A stretch of 26,557 nt of DNA. Source: a virus. The translations under genes and the position numbers were made by a program. Position 1 is the first letter of the stretch. The number at the start of each line of letters is the position of its first letter. Location of the stretch: IMG/VR virus record IMGVR_UViG_3300035659_000088, positions 1 to 26,557 of that record. One strand, written 5' to 3'. Below are positions 25 to 25,495 of this stretch, one piece after another. Under the pieces are notes generated by a model, which had not been told where the DNA came from, searched no databases, and saw only the letters and a list, made by a program, of their open reading frames with translations.

Positions 25-453
25 CTACTGATTGTGGTAGTAACATGAGATTTTCCCTTCAGCTGGGGAATCAGTTGGTGTGCTGCTGTCCTTGGCATCC
101 GTCGTAGTCCCACAAGGATACACTACTGCGGGATCGTACGGAGGCCAGGTTGTGATCACATACGGAGGATTGCAAGACTCACACATCCGAACGGTAGGAG
201 CCCAGATCTTTCCACACTTAGGGCAAGCCCAACCGGTCGGGATTTGAACATCGGAATTAGGGACTACGTGGACGAAGTAGTTCTGGCGAGTGAACCCTGT
301 TCCCTCATTCATCGCCCATCCATCAGTCTTAGAACCTTCGCTCTGCTTATCAAACTGCCCCAGTGGACAATTCGCTTTGTGGTATCCCTTGATGAATCCT
401 CCATCCCCGAGATAATTGTTGCAGTAGGGGCAATATTTTGAATTCTTTTCCAC
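25..453 (-). CDS. Zinc-ribbon hypothetical protein next to a homing endonuclease
   Basis: The 142-residue protein has an N-terminal CPYC pair and a second CPKC...CESC set, which together look like a zinc ribbon. Its function is unknown. I chose the GTG start at 453 because GGAGG lies five bases upstream. An in-frame ATG at 465 lies inside the 3' end of the endonuclease gene and has no good ribosome-binding site. The ribosome-binding site, GTG and the YCxYCNN codons resemble a truncated copy at 1112-1168 on the other side of the endonuclease gene. The first codons may therefore have arrived with that element. The gene ends in TAG. Confidence 0.7.
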   Translation of the reverse strand: MEKNSKYCPYCNNYLGDGGFIKGYHKANCPLGQFDKQSEGSKTDGWAMNEGTGFTRQNYFVHVVPNSDVQIPTGWACPKCGKIWAPTVRMCESCNPPYVITTWPPYDPAVVYPCGTTTDAKDSSTPTDSPAEGKISCYYHNQ

Positions 454-454
454 T

Positions 455-1102
455 TCAACCTCCATTCACAAATTTAAGAATCTTCTTCTTCAGTTTTTCC
501 GGATTCTTCAATTCCCTACTCCAAATAAAAAGAGTCCGATATCCATACTTAGCAAAGTGTCTTGCTCGTGTTCTTGTATTCTCTCCCCTATGCCAATGTT
601 CTCCATTGAACTCTATCAATAGCATAGAACCATCAGTACTGACAAAGTCAGGACACTTGCCATCGACGAATAACTTTCCATTTCCTACATATTTGAACAA
701 CCTCAGAAATAGGGAATTGAGAATACTTAGAATTCTCAATTCCATTTTATTTGGACTCCTACGAAAAGCCAACCACATCTTCTTAGCAAACTCGGGATCC
801 TTCCACAACAGCTTCCAAGAATTGGAAATTTTTCTCTTGCGACTGATAGAATGGAGTTTTCCTTTGTGTGAATCAGATATCTTTTTTCTGTGGGCCGACG
901 AAAGGGAATTTCCATACATAGGATTATTTGGGCCCATCAACTTCAAGGCTATCTTCCTCCTATGGTCCAAAGAAAACTGTCTTCCTTGAAGAGCACGAGA
1001 TAATTTCTCCTTTGTCCTTAATGAAAGATGTTTCCCAAACATTGGATTGTTCTCACCTTTTATAGCATCAGAAATCCTTGTCCTATGTTCCAGCGAAAAC
1101 AT
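455..1102 (-). CDS. NUMOD3 / Vsr-like (EDxHD-type) homing endonuclease, copy 1
   Basis: A 215-residue protein. Residues 1-90 hold NUMOD3-type repeats (NNPMFGKH near 18-25, NNPMYG near 59-64, each followed by a basic KxxIS-like helix), which are DNA-contact modules of homing endonucleases. Residues 119-215 form a very-short-patch-repair-like nuclease domain: PDF (D152), IEFNG (E164) and HWH (H169/H171), then an FAKYGY...LFIW core. The layout recalls the EDxHD family of phage homing endonucleases such as I-Bth0305I. The last about 97 residues are roughly 85% identical by eye to the endonuclease at 21484-22275, while the NUMOD3 arrays differ. It probably cuts DNA lacking the element and drives its own spread. 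Its target gene is inferred from flanking repeats (see findings). No self-splicing intron fits in the flanks. Confidence 0.88.
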   Translation of the reverse strand: MFSLEHRTRISDAIKGENNPMFGKHLSLRTKEKLSRALQGRQFSLDHRRKIALKLMGPNNPMYGNSLSSAHRKKISDSHKGKLHSISRKRKISNSWKLLWKDPEFAKKMWLAFRRSPNKMELRILSILNSLFLRLFKYVGNGKLFVDGKCPDFVSTDGSMLLIEFNGEHWHRGENTRTRARHFAKYGYRTLFIWSRELKNPEKLKKKILKFVNGG

Positions 1103-1111
1103 CCTTACGAC

Positions 1112-1168
1112 CTATTTCTCAGCTGTGTTGTTGCAGTAAGAGCAATAGCCTTTCCCCGTCTTACTCAC
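1112..1168 (-). pseudogene. 5' relic of a zinc-ribbon gene, upstream of endonuclease copy 1
   Basis: An 18-codon open frame starts at a GTG that overlaps the TGA-type junction of the previous gene (GTGAGTAA) and has GGAGG five bases upstream. It encodes a GYCSYCNN segment and then stops at TAG. The ribosome-binding site, GTG start, TATTGC codons and TACTGCAACAA codons match the beginning of the zinc-ribbon gene at 25-453. I read it as the original 5' end of that gene, cut off by insertion of the endonuclease gene. It could still be translated as a short peptide. Its TAG is in frame with the endonuclease ATG, three codons ahead of it. Confidence 0.6.
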
Positions 1169-3532: not shown

Positions 3533-4213
3533 CTAGTCTTTCTTGGAAGCTGAGGAAGGAGGTCCCATCCTCTCGGCTGGACCATGGCCCGGCTCACCGG
3601 GGCCAACCTCTTTTGCCACAGGGATATACAGCCCGATGTAACGCTCCAAGGTCTCCAGAGCCATGTCCGCTGACTCCTTCGCATCTTGGACCAACTTCTG
3701 GATCTCTTTGATATCCCCATCGGAGACTTCCCAAGTCTTACCCTTCTCCTTCCCAGGCTTCTCGAACAACTCCCAGGCCTCGGAAGCGGACGATGTGAGT
3801 TCATCCAAGGCCATCTCGATGTCACCGAGGTACTCTTCCTTCTCACCCCCTGGGTCCTCAGCCTTCTTCTTCAAGGAAGCTGTGACCCCTTCCTCCGGAG
3901 GAGCCTCAGTGAAGTTACCCTGGTACTCCATGACCGTTCGAGAACACTTCTCAGCAGTGTCCTTCAGATCCTCGAGGCCCTTGAGGATACTCTCTAAGTC
4001 TTCTTTCCCCCGGGGAGCAGCCTCGAACGTGTCGAACAAATGGGTGGCTTCCTCCTTCAACATCTCGAGTCCCGCTTCTACACCACCCAGACCTTCTTCC
4101 TGTTCGTCCTCGACAGATTGCTCCCCTACTCCAGGAACAGTCTCTGGCCCTTGCTCATCCCCTACCGGAATCTCTGGAGCAGCTAACCTGACCATCTTCT
4201 CAGTGAGTGGCAT
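3533..4213 (-). CDS. Acidic coiled-coil protein, unknown function
   Basis: A highly acidic, Glu/Lys-rich protein of 226 residues, predicted by eye to be mostly helical with coiled-coil stretches (residues about 40-110 and 120-200) and low-complexity ends rich in Pro, Gly and Glu. I prefer the second ATG (4213) because AAGGAG lies seven bases upstream, while the ATG at 4219 is too close to it. The gene ends just before the terminase gene. A packaging accessory or scaffold-like role is possible from position and composition, but nothing in the sequence proves it. Confidence 0.65.
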   Translation of the reverse strand: MPLTEKMVRLAAPEIPVGDEQGPETVPGVGEQSVEDEQEEGLGGVEAGLEMLKEEATHLFDTFEAAPRGKEDLESILKGLEDLKDTAEKCSRTVMEYQGNFTEAPPEEGVTASLKKKAEDPGGEKEEYLGDIEMALDELTSSASEAWELFEKPGKEKGKTWEVSDGDIKEIQKLVQDAKESADMALETLERYIGLYIPVAKEVGPGEPGHGPAERMGPPSSASKKD

Positions 4214-4225
4214 CTTCATTCTCCT

Positions 4226-4624
4226 TCATGGATTTGCAGATTCAACAAGTTGAGGTGGTGATTGATCTATCTTTTCATTCTCACCCCCAATCTCTTCATC
4301 TACCACAGGTCCAGGAGCGGTAGTTGGTCCGTCTTGTGGATGATCAGTCAATGAAGGTCCTTTGTAAGCTCCCCTAGCTTCCACGACTTCGGGAGGCGAG
4401 GGAGGAGGTTCTTGTATCTTCATGGGAACACAGGGGCAGACGAGAACCTCCCCGGTGTGAACGTACCGTCCGGTGTATCCCCGGCCGAAGCATTTCTTGC
4501 AGTTCTTCTTGGCGGCAGATAGGTCCCAAGCTCCAAGCTTGTTGTTGATAACCACTCTCCCACCGCCTAGGTACTGAACCGCGGGGCTCTCAGGCGGGAA
4601 TCCCATTGTCGGCCTGTGTGACAT
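4226..4624 (-). CDS. Small Cys-motif protein with proline-rich tail
   Basis: A 132-residue protein. A CKKCFGRGYTG motif followed by CPC resembles half of a DnaJ-type CxxCxGxG zinc centre (residues about 42-66). The C-terminal half is Pro/Glu-rich and probably disordered. It overlaps the end of the upstream gene by about 35 bases. An alternative ATG seven codons in (4606) would reduce the overlap. The function is unknown; it belongs to a run of small zinc-binding proteins in this operon. Confidence 0.6.
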   Translation of the reverse strand: MSHRPTMGFPPESPAVQYLGGGRVVINNKLGAWDLSAAKKNCKKCFGRGYTGRYVHTGEVLVCPCVPMKIQEPPPSPPEVVEARGAYKGPSLTDHPQDGPTTAPGPVVDEEIGGENEKIDQSPPQLVESANP

Positions 4625-4844
4625 AGATCATCTTGGAACGGTCAATCGTTCCATCTTCTAAGACTGGATAGACGTGATGACAGCTGAAACATATCTCTCC
4701 GAGTTTCTTCTTGTCCTTCCCCAACCCTTTGTAGAGTGGGTAGAAGTCTCGATTCTTGAGACAATGCTTGCAGTGAAAACCTATCCGGACCTCACTTGAC
4801 TTCTTTTCTTCTTTCTTCTTGACTGGCATCAGGAGACGCACCAT
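4590..4844 (-). CDS. Small zinc-ribbon protein
   Basis: An 84-residue protein with a Lys-rich N-terminus and CKHC...CFSCHH pairs that form a likely zinc ribbon (residues about 24-57). GGAGGG lies nine bases before the ATG at 4844, which supports this start even though it overlaps the upstream gene by 53 bases. An internal ATG at 4829 is the alternative. No specific function can be read from the sequence. Confidence 0.6.
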   Translation of the reverse strand: MVRLLMPVKKKEEKKSSEVRIGFHCKHCLKNRDFYPLYKGLGKDKKKLGEICFSCHHVYPVLEDGTIDRSKMIYVTQADNGIPA

Positions 4845-5328
4845 GGATATTACCCTCCGTCTTTCGGAAATGTTTCAACAACCAATCCACTACCTTCTGA
4901 GGAATGCTTTCACCAAACACGAATGATCCGCAGACAGACTCTCCGTTGCAGAGTCCTGCGTAAGAAACCATCCCGGACTTGTTCAAGTCGATTGAGAAGA
5001 CTCCATTGGTCAGACTATCCCACTCGAGCCTGGGGTCTCCCGTGTAGGGATCCCCATGGATCTCAGGTTGGATAAGTCCTTCTGGCAATGAAGCAATAAA
5101 CGAATCTATGCTGATAGGAGGTCTGTAACCCATGATGTCCTCCAAGAGTCCTTGTGTTCTAACTTTGTCAGCTACGTCTTCCTCTTCTTCGTAGCCACAG
5201 CTGAAACAGATACGGTCCTCTGTAGCATACATGAGCTCACCAGTTGCCATGTTGATGCCCCAGACCGATCCCATAGAAAGGTATTCATTGCAGATGGGAC
5301 AACGTCTGTTCCAACCTTCATCACTCAC
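4792..5328 (-). CDS. Zinc-ribbon hypothetical protein
   Basis: A 178-residue protein starting at GTG in a GTGAGTGATG junction that overlaps the upstream stop codon. The N-terminus carries CPIC (about 10-13) and CFSC (about 41-44), a typical four-cysteine zinc ribbon. A central stretch of beta-like sequence follows, with CNGESVCGSFVFGES, and a short helical tail. The function is unknown. Tight overlaps on both sides mark it as part of one operon. Confidence 0.68.
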   Translation of the reverse strand: MSDEGWNRRCPICNEYLSMGSVWGINMATGELMYATEDRICFSCGYEEEEDVADKVRTQGLLEDIMGYRPPISIDSFIASLPEGLIQPEIHGDPYTGDPRLEWDSLTNGVFSIDLNKSGMVSYAGLCNGESVCGSFVFGESIPQKVVDWLLKHFRKTEGNIHGASPDASQEERRKEVK

Positions 5329-19046: not shown

Positions 19047-19330
19047 GTTGGCTTCCCGATGATCTCTTCTAACTTCTTCTTCACGATATCGAACTGTTCC
19101 CGGAGACCAACCAACTCCAACAGCGCCATGGCCAACAAGATCTGGTCATCCGAAGTCAATTTATAATCCACTTTGCTTGCCAGACTCCTCAGATGATCAA
19201 TCCCTGCATCAATGATTATCCACATCCCCGGGGAGACTTCCTCGACAAATGGAACTACACTTTGCAGTCTCTCATTCACATCCACAACTTTTCGGTCCTC
19301 AGGAAAAAGAATAATTTTATCACCGTTCAT
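19043..19330 (-). CDS. Hypothetical protein
   Basis: The ATG at 19330 overlaps the upstream stop (ATGA), giving 95 residues; the longer frame only extends into the upstream gene. It is a helical protein with hydrophobic heptads (LLAMALLELVGLREQFDIVK). The function is unknown. Confidence 0.6.
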   Translation of the reverse strand: MNGDKIILFPEDRKVVDVNERLQSVVPFVEEVSPGMWIIIDAGIDHLRSLASKVDYKLTSDDQILLAMALLELVGLREQFDIVKKKLEEIIGKPT

Positions 19331-19593
19331 GACTTTTTTCTCACAGGAAGGTCCTCTTCTCCCCGGACAATACGGCCAATCTGAAGCAACCAAGGAGGAG
19401 TGATTAGTCCTACCGACAATTCAGTGAGTAAAGCCCCTAGCTCACCCCACCGGATATGCATTGCCTCGGGAGCAGTATAAAACGAGGATGTGACAATCCT
19501 ATCCAACCGATCAGGATATTCGAAGTAAGGGTCCTCAGCCTTGGGGATAAGCGTCTTTATGGCCTCAATGACTTCAGCAATGTTTCTCTCCAT
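19327..19593 (-). CDS. Hypothetical protein carrying a TerL-derived segment
   Basis: The ATG at 19593 has GGAGG five bases upstream and directly follows the TGA of the previous gene, giving 88 residues. Residues about 18-31 read KAEDPYFEYPDRLD, identical to TerL residues 358-371, and the DNA matches at 40 of 42 bases. The rest of the protein is unlike TerL. The segment may be a recombination scar or a mimic. The function is unknown. Confidence 0.62.
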   Translation of the reverse strand: MERNIAEVIEAIKTLIPKAEDPYFEYPDRLDRIVTSSFYTAPEAMHIRWGELGALLTELSVGLITPPWLLQIGRIVRGEEDLPVRKKS

Positions 19594-19594
19594 C

Positions 19595-20326
19595 TCACCC
19601 TCCAGTATAACTAACATGACAGTACTTGTGAACTTGCTGAACCACTGAAGTGATTCCTCCATCGATGAAAGACACCTGGTCTCCATACTTTCCTCTTACC
19701 TTGTTCCACCACTTGTGGCTAGAAAACTTAGAGACGATGATAAAATCAAAAGATCCATTGAATGAGATCCTATTCGTAGCCTTGCAATGGACAAAGTCTA
19801 CTGGCAAATACTTACACTTCTCATACACGGCTTGAAACTGATCCGCCAGGAGACCCACAATGCAGACCTTGTACCGGTCCTTCTTCTCTGGAACAGCAAC
19901 CTTCTCAAGTCTGGGGACAGTCCGTTCTGCGAAAGGCTGGACAGGAAACCTCTCCCGAAGGAACAACTCCAACTTCCCAAAGGACTCCGAGAACCGAAGC
20001 ATTGCATGCAAGAGAAGCTTGTCAGTAGGAACCTTAGAGAGAAGAACATCCTCATCGACCGTCTCGGGATCTCGCTCAAGGATCAAAGGCTCGGGATCCT
20101 TGAAGTCTGCGACCATCTGATTGATCTGCATCTGGACCCTAGATGCAATCCCCTTTGGCATCGCGGGGAGCTTCCTTCTCCTATCCTCGGGGAGCACAGC
20201 AGTCTGAACTTCCTCAAAGATCTGGCGGAGGCTTTTGCTCACATCCTTGAGCCTCCGCTCCGCGATCTCCTTCGTCAGGAGGGACTTCTCTTCCTCAGTC
20301 CAGTAAACTTTTTCTGCTTTTGACAT
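19595..20326 (-). CDS. Protein with SANT-like N-terminus and DUF2325-like C-terminus
   Basis: A 243-residue protein. The N-terminal YWTEEEKSLLTKEIAER resembles a Myb/SANT-type helix. The C-terminal 90 residues, from about 150 (KVCIVGLL...), contain the spaced pattern seen in DUF2325 proteins: a Rossmann-like strand, FDFIIVSKFSSHKWWNKVRG and a final SFIDGGITSVVQQV. DUF2325 domains are of unknown biochemical role. A sigma70-type promoter (20364-20392) lies upstream; the start codon has no clear ribosome-binding site. Confidence 0.55.
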   Translation of the reverse strand: MSKAEKVYWTEEEKSLLTKEIAERRLKDVSKSLRQIFEEVQTAVLPEDRRRKLPAMPKGIASRVQMQINQMVADFKDPEPLILERDPETVDEDVLLSKVPTDKLLLHAMLRFSESFGKLELFLRERFPVQPFAERTVPRLEKVAVPEKKDRYKVCIVGLLADQFQAVYEKCKYLPVDFVHCKATNRISFNGSFDFIIVSKFSSHKWWNKVRGKYGDQVSFIDGGITSVVQQVHKYCHVSYTGG

Positions 20327-20729: not shown

Positions 20730-20920
20730 TTCCCAATCTCCAACAGTATCTCGTGTATCCTGTTGTGCATATCATCGGTTGAAGGCAATGACTTATTCCA
20801 TCCATACTTTCCAAGATGGACATCTATATCATGCAGCAGATTCAATGCGGAATCACGCTCAGTCAGTGCATGCGACAAGGACTCAGCCATCACATCCCAC
20901 ATCTTCTGACTTATTTTCAT
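20726..20920 (-). CDS. Small helical protein
   Basis: A 64-residue, mainly helical protein with its ATG in a TAATG overlap with the SSB stop. No recognised domain. It is probably translated together with SSB. Confidence 0.6.
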   Translation of the reverse strand: MKISQKMWDVMAESLSHALTERDSALNLLHDIDVHLGKYGWNKSLPSTDDMHNRIHEILLEIGK

Positions 20921-21372
20921 TAAGACTCCACTCCGTGATCTTGAAGATCGGGGGGAGGAGTCTGTTGCTCTTCTTCAGGAACTGGAGGAATCTCCTCTTC
21001 CTTCTTCTCCGTATAGGTCAGGTCCTGAACGTAGAACGCCCGGATCTCTACCGCGGAGAACTTCCGGTCGATCTCAGCAACATGAACCTCCCGGCAAGTC
21101 AAGCATCCCTCAACGAAAACCAATGAGCCCTTCTTTAGAGTCCTATCCAACCGCTCAGCAAGCTCATCAGTCGCTACCACCCGGACAAACGTGGAGTCCT
21201 TCTTGGTCTTCTGCTCCCGGAGATCGAAGTATTCCCTCCGGATCACTACACCGAAGGAGACCATCGGGACCCGGTTGTACATGTACCTGAGCTCGGGATC
21301 TTTGGTCAGATAAGCAACGACCATCACCCTGTTGATGTTCGGTACGAACATCTTCTCCGCATTATTGCTCAT
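20920..21372 (-). CDS. ssb: Single-stranded DNA-binding protein
   Basis: A 150-residue protein. Residues about 12-115 form an OB fold with SSB features: NRVMVVAYLTKDPELRY, VSFGVVIRREY and STFVRVVATDELAERL...LKKGSLVFVEG. The C-terminus is acidic and Pro-rich, but does not end in the usual DDDIPF-type tip; it ends LQDHGVES. It would coat single-stranded DNA during replication and recombination. A GGGGGG-type ribosome-binding site precedes the ATG. The gene lies directly downstream of homing endonuclease copy 2. Confidence 0.84.
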   Translation of the reverse strand: MSNNAEKMFVPNINRVMVVAYLTKDPELRYMYNRVPMVSFGVVIRREYFDLREQKTKKDSTFVRVVATDELAERLDRTLKKGSLVFVEGCLTCREVHVAEIDRKFSAVEIRAFYVQDLTYTEKKEEEIPPVPEEEQQTPPPDLQDHGVES

Positions 21373-21388
21373 AATAATTCCCCCCCTA

Positions 21389-21478
21389 TTAAGTAACTTT
21401 AGGATCTCCCGTGGGCAACAAACCTGAATCCAGCGCTCCCTCCCACAAGAAGCACATAATCGATAAAGCCCTTTTCAT
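21389..21478 (-). pseudogene. 3' relic of the gene at 22250-22588, downstream of endonuclease copy 2
   Basis: A 29-codon open frame that encodes ALSIMCFLWEGALDSG and ends at TAA just before the SSB ribosome-binding site. The gene on the other side of the endonuclease contains ALSVMCFLWE near its C-terminus. The DNA of the two copies matches at about 26 of 32 bases around GATAAAGCCC (plus-strand reading). I interpret it as the original 3' end of the upstream gene, displaced by the endonuclease insertion. It might still be translated from its ATG. Confidence 0.65.
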
Positions 21479-21483
21479 TTGAC

Positions 21484-22275
21484 TCACCGATATTCCTCAA
21501 CAAACTTTATGATCTTCTTTTTCAATCTTTTAGGATTCTTCAATTCTCTCTGCCAGATGAATAGTGTTTTATATCCATACTTCGCAAAGTGTCTAGCCCT
21601 TGTTCTTGTGTTTTCTCCCCTATGCCAATATCCACCATTGAACTCGATCAACAACATAGAACCGTCGGTACTAACGAAATCTGGACACTTGCCATCGACG
21701 AATAACTTACCATTCCCGACGTACCTGAATAATCTTGGAAACAGCGAATTAAGGATACTTAGAACCATCTGTTCTAGTTTGTTTGGACTACGGTGACAAG
21801 AGGATAAAACCTTGCTAGCAAATTTTGGATCTTTCCACTTCTCAACCATCCGTCTTTTAGAAACTTCCCCTATTTTCTTCTTCGTCATTTCTGTATGATG
21901 CTTACCAAACCAATAATGAGAATGATTTAAGCTCATCTTTTTTCTTATATTCTTAGAAAAATGTTTTCCGTAGTTAGAACTACATTCACCACTATTAGCC
22001 TTAGATATCTTCTTTCTAGTCTTCAGAGAAAGGTGTTTCCCGTACATAGGACTACTCTCACCAGTTTTTCCAAACTGGGGATGATTCCTCCCAGACATTC
22101 TTTCAGATAGACTTTTCTTCCACTTCAAAGTATGATGTTTCCCCCAAAATGGAGCATCTTTACCATAACGATGAACACCATACATAGGGGCATCCTTACC
22201 CCGACGACCATACATAGGATTATTTTTTCCCTTAACATCAACAAGATTTTTACGAATCTTTTTTCCCATCCTCAA
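21484..22275 (-). CDS. NUMOD3 / Vsr-like (EDxHD-type) homing endonuclease, copy 2
   Basis: A 263-residue protein with a long array of NUMOD3-type units in residues 15-130 (NNPMYG, DAPMYG, DAPFWGKHH, NHPQFGK, SSPMYGKH, SSNYGKH, YWFGKHH), about twice the number in copy 1. The C-terminal nuclease (about 165-263) has PDF (D199), IEFNG (E211) and a WH pair (H218), as in Vsr-like EDxHD endonucleases. One difference at the active-site edge is GGYWH here against GEHWH in copy 1. The start overlaps the altered 3' end of the upstream gene by 26 bases. Confidence 0.88.
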   Translation of the reverse strand: MRMGKKIRKNLVDVKGKNNPMYGRRGKDAPMYGVHRYGKDAPFWGKHHTLKWKKSLSERMSGRNHPQFGKTGESSPMYGKHLSLKTRKKISKANSGECSSNYGKHFSKNIRKKMSLNHSHYWFGKHHTEMTKKKIGEVSKRRMVEKWKDPKFASKVLSSCHRSPNKLEQMVLSILNSLFPRLFRYVGNGKLFVDGKCPDFVSTDGSMLLIEFNGGYWHRGENTRTRARHFAKYGYKTLFIWQRELKNPKRLKKKIIKFVEEYR

Positions 22276-22588
22276 TACTCGATAATTCCCAAAGGAAACA
22301 CATCACCGATAAAGCCCCAATGGTCATATAACTTAGAAACATTTGCTTATCTTTCTCCGGACTATCCTTGAGCATTGAAGACTGGTTGACATAGAATGCC
22401 ATCGCCTGGAACAAGGACGCCACGAAGGGACACTCACTCCCTACCTTGATCCCCGTCCCCCAGAATGCTCCAAAGATGTCAAGGGCTCCAGCAGCCTCTC
22501 CGGACTGTGGCTGCTGACCAAACTTTGTGATGTAAAAAGCATAGTCATCAAACTTGAGTGCTTTAAGGTCCACATAGTTGATCATCAC
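22250..22588 (-). CDS. Hypothetical protein with C-terminus rebuilt by endonuclease insertion
   Basis: A 112-residue protein beginning at GTG (22588; ATG one codon later) with AGGAG upstream. Two hydrophobic stretches (about 50-68 and 85-101) suggest a small membrane-associated protein. The last about 22 residues (from GALSVMCFLWE) correspond to a diverged relic at 21389-21478, beyond the endonuclease gene. The present C-terminus SSIEDGKKDS lies inside the overlap with the endonuclease gene, so it was probably delivered with that element. The function is unknown. Confidence 0.64.
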   Translation of the reverse strand: MMINYVDLKALKFDDYAFYITKFGQQPQSGEAAGALDIFGAFWGTGIKVGSECPFVASLFQAMAFYVNQSSMLKDSPEKDKQMFLSYMTIGALSVMCFLWELSSIEDGKKDS

Positions 22589-23587: not shown

Positions 23588-23596
23588 CTCCTTATT

Positions 23597-23625
23597 ATTA
23601 TACCACAAAAGTGTGCGCTTTTCTC
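23597..23625 (-). promoter_or_regulatory. Extended -10 promoter (downstream copy of a duplicated pair)
   Basis: On the minus strand TGGTATAAT is an extended -10 (TATAAT at 23597-23602). The -35 at 17 bases (GAGAAA) is poor. The box and about 60 bases upstream of it are an imperfect direct repeat of the region at 24160-24237, on the other side of the HNH-AP2 gene. Confidence 0.6.
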
Positions 23626-23667
23626 GGGTTATCTGATTTAATCATTTGCCCCCTAAAACAAGGACCG

Positions 23668-24150
23668 CTATGCCTCCCAGTGGAAATTAAGTTTTGCAAA
23701 TTCTCCAAACAGTTTCATTGCTACTTCATCGTATGCATGAGCAGCAGCATCCTCTCGCGGGAAATACCCAATACGTATTTGCTTCCCTTTGAACCGGATC
23801 TGTACTCTCCAAGCTTTACTTTTCCTATTCCAATGAACACCCTTAAACCTTGAACTTTTCAGTCTGATTTGAATCTGTTGGTTGTATTGGTTCTGAGCAG
23901 GAGTCGCTATTCGTAGATTCTCCCTCCGATTATCAAAATGATCCCCACTCCTATGGTCTGCCTCCATTCCATCTCCGGGAATCAATCCCAATAAAAGACG
24001 ATGGAGATACAAAGGAACCTGTCTTTCTTTGATTCGCAAATTGGTTGCAACATAACCATTTCTAACATGCCACTTGAATTCAGAAATCAACAAATAATCC
24101 TCATCATCCACTATCGCATGTCTTCCTTGAGTCAATTCAATTATTTTCAT
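23668..24150 (-). CDS. HNH homing endonuclease with AP2 DNA-binding domain
   Basis: Starting at the ATG at 24150 (GGAGG eight bases upstream) the protein has 160 residues. Residues about 47-90 are an HNH nuclease (LHRLLLG, EADHRSGDHFDNRRENLR) and residues about 100-155 an AP2/ERF-type DNA-binding domain (SRFKGVHWNRKSKAWRVQI...GYFPREDAAAHAYDEVA). This HNH-AP2 combination is a standard free-standing homing endonuclease of phages. It has its own promoter and lies between two imperfect copies of that promoter region. Confidence 0.9.
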   Translation of the reverse strand: MKIIELTQGRHAIVDDEDYLLISEFKWHVRNGYVATNLRIKERQVPLYLHRLLLGLIPGDGMEADHRSGDHFDNRRENLRIATPAQNQYNQQIQIRLKSSRFKGVHWNRKSKAWRVQIRFKGKQIRIGYFPREDAAAHAYDEVAMKLFGEFAKLNFHWEA

Positions 24151-24169
24151 TTCATAATCCTCCAACTAT

Positions 24170-24198
24170 ATTATACCATAAAATTGGCCGCTTTTCCA
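24170..24198 (-). promoter_or_regulatory. Extended -10 promoter (upstream copy of a duplicated pair)
   Basis: TGGTATAAT on the minus strand (TATAAT at 24170-24175). A weak -35 (TGGAAA) lies 17 bases upstream. Transcription is expected to begin near 24163, which leaves a short leader with GGAGG before the HNH-AP2 ATG at 24150. Confidence 0.62.
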
Positions 24199-24270
24199 GA
24201 ACTATCTTACTTAATCACTTACACCTTAAAATAAAGAGTATCATGTTAGTCGATGTTTCCCCTCCAGGGA

Positions 24271-24436: not shown

Positions 24437-25495
24437 TTAGTTGGACTTCTTGGACTCGTAGGAAATGCTGGCGAGATAGTCGTCGATGGAAGCTACCCCC
24501 TTGGTAGCCATCGAGGCTGCCACCGAGAAGGCCCTGGTCTTGAGGTCAGCTCCCCGTCCGAATAGGATTCGGTTCAACCGGTTCTCACCGGCATTGTCCT
24601 CCCGACGGGTGTCTCTGTAGTCCACGAATTCCGTGACCGCGTTGTAGCCACCCCAGAGAGTCCCCCTGACTCCCTTGATCTCAGTGCCCCTTCCCGAGAC
24701 GGCCAACCTTTTAATCTCCTCCCTGATCCGAGCATTGCGGTCATTCTTCACCTCGGCCCGAGGAGAGTCCAGATTGGTCGAATCCCTGACCACCGCCTGG
24801 AGGTACTTGGAGAAGTAGTTGTCCGGGAGCTTCACCAGACTCAACTTCTTCATGACCTCCTCGATGGAGTCGTAGTTGTTCTTGATGATCCCCAGGAGAT
24901 CCTCCACCTTCTCCAGGTTGGTCTTGACATCCGGATAGTGGTAGACCCGGAAGGTCTGTTCCTGTCCACCCTGGGCCATAACCAGAGTGTTCTGGCAGAC
25001 CACCCTGACCGGAGTGAACTTCACACCGACCACTGTCCCACCATCGTGCCCGTTGTAGAGCAAGAGGTACTTCTTCGTGATGTCCTGGTTGAGGACCTTG
25101 ATCTCCCCAGGAAGCTTAGCCAAGATCCAGATCTTCTCTCCCCGGCCCAGTGCACCAGCGGTCTCGAAGATCGCCTTCTTTGCTCCGACCACTCCGTCGA
25201 AGAAGCTGAAAGCCTCGGAGTTCTGGAGTGGCGTGTAGGACTTGCCAACCACCCCGAGCGGGGACCATTCATCCTCCCGAACCGTAGCGAAGTAGTCAGG
25301 GACTTTCTTCATCGAACCGGACTTGACCTTGGCGTAGAGATCGTACTTCCCAACCTGCCAGTCGAGACCAGCAGCCTTGATGGCTTCCTTGGAAGTCGCT
25401 GGACCTTTCAGCTTGGTCCCCAATCCATGCCAGGGGGTCTCCCCGTGGTAGAACATCGCGTGCTTCCCGTTGGTTTTCGCCAGATTGTGTACCAT
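24437..25495 (-). CDS. DUF932 phage/plasmid-like protein
   Basis: A 352-residue protein that fits the DUF932 (phage/plasmid-like, TIGR03299-type) family over its length. The N-terminus MVHNLAKTNGKHAMFYHGE with TPWHGLGT is typical, as are YTPLQNSEAFSFFD, PVRVVCQNTL and the C-terminal GTLWGGYNAVTEFVDY region. The biochemical role of the family is unknown, although it is abundant in phages and plasmids and often highly expressed. AAGGAG lies upstream of the ATG and a strong terminator follows. Local base composition is richer in G+C than in the neighbouring endonuclease genes. Confidence 0.88.
   Translation of the reverse strand: MVHNLAKTNGKHAMFYHGETPWHGLGTKLKGPATSKEAIKAAGLDWQVGKYDLYAKVKSGSMKKVPDYFATVREDEWSPLGVVGKSYTPLQNSEAFSFFDGVVGAKKAIFETAGALGRGEKIWILAKLPGEIKVLNQDITKKYLLLYNGHDGGTVVGVKFTPVRVVCQNTLVMAQGGQEQTFRVYHYPDVKTNLEKVEDLLGIIKNNYDSIEEVMKKLSLVKLPDNYFSKYLQAVVRDSTNLDSPRAEVKNDRNARIREEIKRLAVSGRGTEIKGVRGTLWGGYNAVTEFVDYRDTRREDNAGENRLNRILFGRGADLKTRAFSVAASMATKGVASIDDYLASISYESKKSN

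Follow-up and report, generated by a model that had tools for sequence, protein, structure and literature searches.

Diverged duplicate gene ends around a predicted free-standing homing endonuclease in a virus genome suggest one-sided homing

In the window, the whole 26,557-base virus record analysed here (its genes are on the minus strand), a predicted homing endonuclease lies between two in-frame copies of the 3' end of its host gene, and we consider it likely that one-sided homing brought in a functional, diverged end and stranded the original one. The host gene (22250..22588) is an open reading frame for a 112-aa protein with no assigned function. It terminates in GALSVMCFLWE followed by a unique tail, LSSIEDGKKDS (22250..22286), which shares 11 nt with the endonuclease start (ATG at 22260). 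The last 10 shared codons, ALSVMCFLWE (22287..22317), reappear past the endonuclease (copy 2, 21484..22260) on the same strand and in the same frame as ALSIMCFLWE (21441..21471). This second copy belongs to a short open frame after the endonuclease stop (21389..21487) that encodes ALSIMCFLWEGALDSGLLPTGDPKVT and would be the stranded old 3' end of the host gene. The frame has 29 codons from the ATG at 21478 to the TAA at 21389, or 32 codons from the GTG at 21487 (MKRALSIMCFLWEGALDSGLLPTGDPKVT); the GTG overlaps the endonuclease stop, and the relic stop lies 16 nt ahead of ssb (20920..21372; Pfam SSB, E=4e-18). The preliminary description had correctly reported the host gene terminus with its short tail running into the endonuclease start, and the 29-codon frame with its different tail. 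It had also reported a DNA match of about 26 in 32 positions with the uninterrupted GGGCTTTATCG; the exact stretch is present, and the count is 26 of 31 nt, ungapped.

We confirmed that the duplication flanking copy 2 is real. The repeat scored 21 at the DNA level, where the best of 2000 Markov shuffles reached 16 (0/2000 as good), and 55 at the protein level, where the best of 20000 shuffles reached 50 (0/20000 reached the score). Ranked against left and right flanks randomly paired across different endonuclease loci, it gave a p of about 0.001-0.002. Four codons differ between the two copies, three of them synonymously, and the remaining one is V/I.

The endonuclease was identified as copy 2 in the preliminary description, and rightly so, as copy 1 of the same family (455..1102; NUMOD3 E=1e-21, DUF559) is 60% identical to it over 205 aa. 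NUMOD3 DNA-binding repeats, as in NUMOD3-containing homing endonucleases, were found in three stretches of copy 2 (Pfam NUMOD3, E=1e-17). I-Bth0305I and fractured-gene endonucleases were reportedly described by Dassa et al. in 2009 (cited in PMC10448857); a profile of 28 members of the copy 2 family matched the catalytic domain of I-Bth0305I (PDB 3r3p, E=4e-9), which places them in the same nuclease domain family, whereas the split inteins of the fractured-gene endonucleases are absent from the window. The profile also matched Vsr chains (E=1e-4 to 2e-4; 1cw0, E=1e-4) and the DNA-binding part of I-TevI (1i3j, E=0.009). E163, D194 and E206 are invariant in the family and H213 is conserved in at least 90% of its members; these may correspond to the acidic and His catalytic residues. 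The family carries the Vsr-like nuclease domain of EDxHD or I-Bth0305I-like homing endonucleases, no self-splicing intron or intein was found around copy 2, and copy 2 is predicted from its sequence to be a free-standing homing endonuclease of the I-Bth0305I/Vsr-like (EDxHD-type) kind.

Free-standing phage endonucleases cleave their neighbour gene in viruses that do not carry them, and the endonuclease is then copied in by repair. In the reading that we favour, a diverged version of the 112-aa gene in a donor virus would have had the endonuclease immediately behind it, and in a recipient without the endonuclease the enzyme would have cut the 112-aa gene close to the 3' end. One broken end would have been repaired by homologous recombination inside the gene, with the donor 3' end copied in together with the endonuclease, while the other broken end, with no match in the donor, would have been joined near the cut. 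The event would leave a chimeric gene that works with its new 3' end, then the endonuclease, then the old 3' end of the recipient before ssb. The tail LSSIEDGKKDS would then read into DNA that arrived with the endonuclease, the relic tail would be the original C-terminus of the 112-aa protein, and an uninvaded gene would end in FLWEGALDSGLLPTGDPKVT directly before ssb. We infer the donor origin, the cut position and the route of repair and joining. The direction of the exchange is inferred as well, because no 112-aa homologue, donor or uninvaded relative was found. The 112-aa protein gave no homologue in tblastn against 50,697 phage records, IMG/VR pattern scans, a scan for the CFLWEG DNA pattern, PHROGs or Pfam, and its single-sequence fold was poor (pLDDT 47). 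As queries for a related virus, ssb yielded no relative and a 352-aa gene (24437-25495) one distant match. Since the 112-aa protein has no homologue in these searches, end replacement is unproved at 22250-22588 itself, and the earlier proposal that copy 2 replaced the 3' end and stranded the old one draws its support, which is good but indirect, from the same layout in relatives.

This layout was found at recA and nrdJ. In L067 (IMGVR_UViG_3300035701_000512), a 15.7-kb virus contig, two endonuclease copies show the 3'-type scar. Behind recA lies an endonuclease that ends in 27 residues repeating the C-terminus of recA (GEKVRGVSGFEKYLEEHSDFKKKIL and GSKVRGVAGFEEYLTEHPDFKKKVL), the two ends being identical at 18/25 aa and 49/78 nt (63% nucleotide identity); this stranded end is fused to the endonuclease and has an ATGA overlap with the next gene. 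Six nucleotides past the fourth endonuclease of the contig, IWVLVADKYWIKKFVDLFIKEVEG is a copy of the upstream gene's IWVLVADKYWIQKFVTLFINEIEG (59/72 nt), again with an ATGA overlap with the next gene. The junctions of stranded ends with the native next gene are thus tight, with ATGA overlaps in these two cases and 16 nt to ssb in the window. In L150, NrdJ terminates in MRCKKCGWSRCD, and a second terminus, MKCKKCGWNKCD, lies past the endonuclease in a relic whose ATG shares bases with the endonuclease stop. Five endonuclease-free phage NrdJ genes each have a single C-terminal end and no further copy of it within 1.5 kb, one of them (L177) having a slightly different end motif. The searches for close recA relatives of L067 returned L067 itself, and the second host gene of that contig had no homologue in phages. 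We also observed that L067 holds five members of one endonuclease family in its 15.7 kb, each between consecutive co-directional genes. Separately, the NrdJ fragment of L150 (586-1758) starts like the C-terminal end of an intein (Pfam Intein_splicing, below the cut-off), so this gene may carry the marks of two kinds of mobile element.

A mirror arrangement at 5' ends was found at copy 1. A stub, MSKTGKGYCSYCNNTAEK* (1112..1168), adjoins copy 1 as the putative stranded old 5' end; its GTG start and the stop of the gene upstream overlap by 8 nt, and the stub matches the start of the host gene at 18/21 nt (YCSYCNN against YCPYCNN). The host gene itself (25..465), a zinc-ribbon-like gene of 146 aa whose start overlaps the end of copy 1, begins with MEVEVEKNSKYCPYCNN, which would be the imported 5' end. 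L077, L154 and L087 have the same order as copy 1, namely a stub with the old start, the endonuclease and the full gene. In L068, a related endonuclease immediately precedes a gene homologous to the L077 host gene (48% identical), which indicates that endonuclease and gene remain together in diverged viruses; this homologue matches the two L077 copies at 83 and 82 of 129 nt and does not separate them. The L077 host gene had no homologue in phages. Two long homologous genes around an endonuclease in L085 may represent either a 5' relic of unusual length or paralogues of the ordinary kind.

We then measured how often the scar occurs, defining a strong scar by a flank protein similarity of at least 45. 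It was present in 8 of the 97 family members, compared with 2/1500 random flank pairings and 5/308 other genes in the same contigs, the latter set leaving out the window's own HNH-AP2 endonuclease (6/309 with it). For all members, the excess over same-contig genes gave a Fisher p of 0.004. When the window and L067, the contigs in which the scar pattern was first sighted, were set aside, the comparison at a stricter threshold was 4/90 against 3/308 (p=0.049), and the same 4/90 stood against 1/1500 for random pairings (p=5e-5), so that the statistics beyond the two discovery contigs are modest. The scar is recurrent yet a minority state, which fits a decay of stranded ends and is no proof of it. 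The 46 other NUMOD3 open reading frames were near background except for promoter-like or weak cases (L011, L013), and we therefore rejected the scar as a general feature of NUMOD3 endonucleases.

Several other repeats were noticed. In the window, an HNH-AP2 endonuclease gene (23668-24165) is immediately flanked by 69-nt direct repeats (23596-23664 and 24169-24237; 75% identical) that contain a promoter-like TATAATA, and with the repeats at copies 1 and 2 all three endonucleases of the window therefore have flanking repeats. A 45-nt repeat, 93% identical, is shared by the terminase gene (2409-2453) and an unrelated open reading frame (19501-19545 in 19327-19686); both encode PKAEDPYFEYPDRLD, and the 3/3 differences are synonymous. 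In L011, a promoter-like 27-mer (2656-2682 and 3674-3700; 24/27) flanks a NUMOD3-containing endonuclease ORF of another type. In L147, two homologous genes are each preceded by a YRGLSDSILGG segment (4103-4291 and downstream of 4288-4869), and this repeat flanks a control gene; the arrangement resembles an ordinary tandem duplication that includes the leader.

The divergence of the paired ends bears on how they arose. The proportions of synonymous and nonsynonymous differences (pS/pN) were.66/.10 for the 112-aa gene ends,.67/.06 for the copy 1 pair, 1.04/.19 for the L067 recA ends, where synonymous sites are saturated,.59/.09 for the second L067 gene,.72/.18 for the L150 nrdJ ends,.65/.27 for L077 and.76/.32 for L154; the L087 pair (.21/.21) is neutral and the exception, and the numbers per pair are small throughout. 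Mainly synonymous differences are expected if the copies had diverged as functional alleles in separate viruses before they were joined. The scar pairs came in part from protein similarity, a criterion biased against nonsynonymous differences, and the synonymous saturation at recA is hard to explain by this bias.

The foremost alternative, which we regard as unlikely, is a local duplication, in which staggered repair between sister genomes turned one sequence into a long target-site duplication (20-70 nt) whose two copies diverged later. The copies closely flank the endonuclease, their lengths are modest and the HNH-AP2 endonuclease is flanked by repeats likewise. Against this, a stranded fragment should drift freely, and locally made copies of which one is useless should not show such a synonymous excess, whereas the differences are largely synonymous with recA saturated and the stranded recA end still retains 18 of 25 residues at 63% nucleotide identity. 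Less probable again is a functional split gene, in which selection maintains the stranded piece, either because it encodes a small protein or because it serves ssb as a translational-coupling leader. In favour, the relic is an open frame with a GAGG-like site that begins with a GTG on the endonuclease stop and ends just before ssb, and L067 and L150 show overlaps of this geometry too; however, the duplicated segment is already in the host gene, so that splitting lost no function, and the stranded recA end in L067 is fused to the endonuclease. Chance similarity or an unrelated tandem gene duplication would suit the shortness of the repeat (31 nt) and the flank similarity seen in five of the control genes, and we consider it highly improbable given that the shuffles never reached the score and that the layout recurs at recA, nrdJ and other genes in the same endonuclease family. 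We rejected an intron or intein that would, once removed, connect the host gene with the frame past the endonuclease, despite the gene-like arrangement that the endonuclease interrupts, since neither the window nor the other loci held an Rfam intron above the gathering score (matches with E<=5 in the window being chance ones), the host gene and copy 2 contain no intein domain, almost no non-coding sequence surrounds the endonuclease and the joined product would hold the duplicated segment twice.

One-sided homing with an imported end has a published precedent in fungal mitochondria. Mobile ORFs with inserted C-termini are described in Allomyces atp6 and in Glomus atp6, atp9, cox2 and nad3, where an endonuclease separates the displaced native C-terminal end from a foreign one that is fused to the host gene; the ends differ mostly synonymously (for atp6, 63.5% nucleotide against 91% amino acid identity), and donor phylogeny and transcripts were tested (PMC3630166). 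The window family likewise shows an endonuclease between two in-frame homologous host-gene ends whose copies diverged mainly at synonymous sites, with L087 as the exception. The fungal enzymes are LAGLIDADG or GIY-YIG proteins of mitochondria, whereas those described here combine NUMOD3 with a Vsr-like nuclease in virus contigs; the virus ends are shorter, occur in 5'-end versions too, and have a putative donor. By analogy, and with the loci of the relatives, the precedent suggests a gene-end swap at the window gene as well.

Among phage systems, the T-even free-standing endonucleases segF, segG and mobE, known for intronless homing, similarly adjoin their target gene and often overlap the upstream stop codon, but flanking duplicated gene ends are not described in the accessible part of the review (PMC2988022). 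The genes-in-pieces covered there (mobE in Aeh1 nrdA and mobA in T4 gene 60; PMC2988022) share a free-standing endonuclease that interrupts a phage gene; they need both pieces, whereas the host gene in the window has a full replacement end and the downstream piece is redundant. A gene-end replacement scar in phages was likewise not described in the accessible text of this review and of a survey of phage endonucleases (PMC2988022, PMC10448857). In the open-access literature no phage precedent was found and the fungal paper was the sole match, which is weak evidence of novelty.

Taken at this strength, it is probable that a diverged relative supplied the new 3' end along with the endonuclease, and that the same event also occurs at 5' ends. 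Engineered home-and-rescue drives, which restore the essential gene that the drive cuts, follow a related logic as far as the accessible text of the source describes them (PMC7968924). We tentatively raise the possibility, which we hold at somewhat less than even, that the endonucleases are natural home-and-rescue drives, each moving as a unit with a 3' or 5' end of the essential gene under attack that is diverged and cleavage-resistant but functional; with such an end carried along, conserved coding sequence could be targeted without killing the gene. If the reading of one-sided homing is right, phage homing endonucleases would reshape the ends of core genes such as recA and nrdJ by importing diverged ends, exchanging the 3' or the 5' end and leaving chimeric genes and misleading phylogenies. 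The stranded copies would mark the cut and the failed homology, and target sites would therefore be predictable and testable. Intronless homing in phages and the fungal mitochondrial cases would be united as one mechanism, a natural counterpart of engineered home-and-rescue drives.
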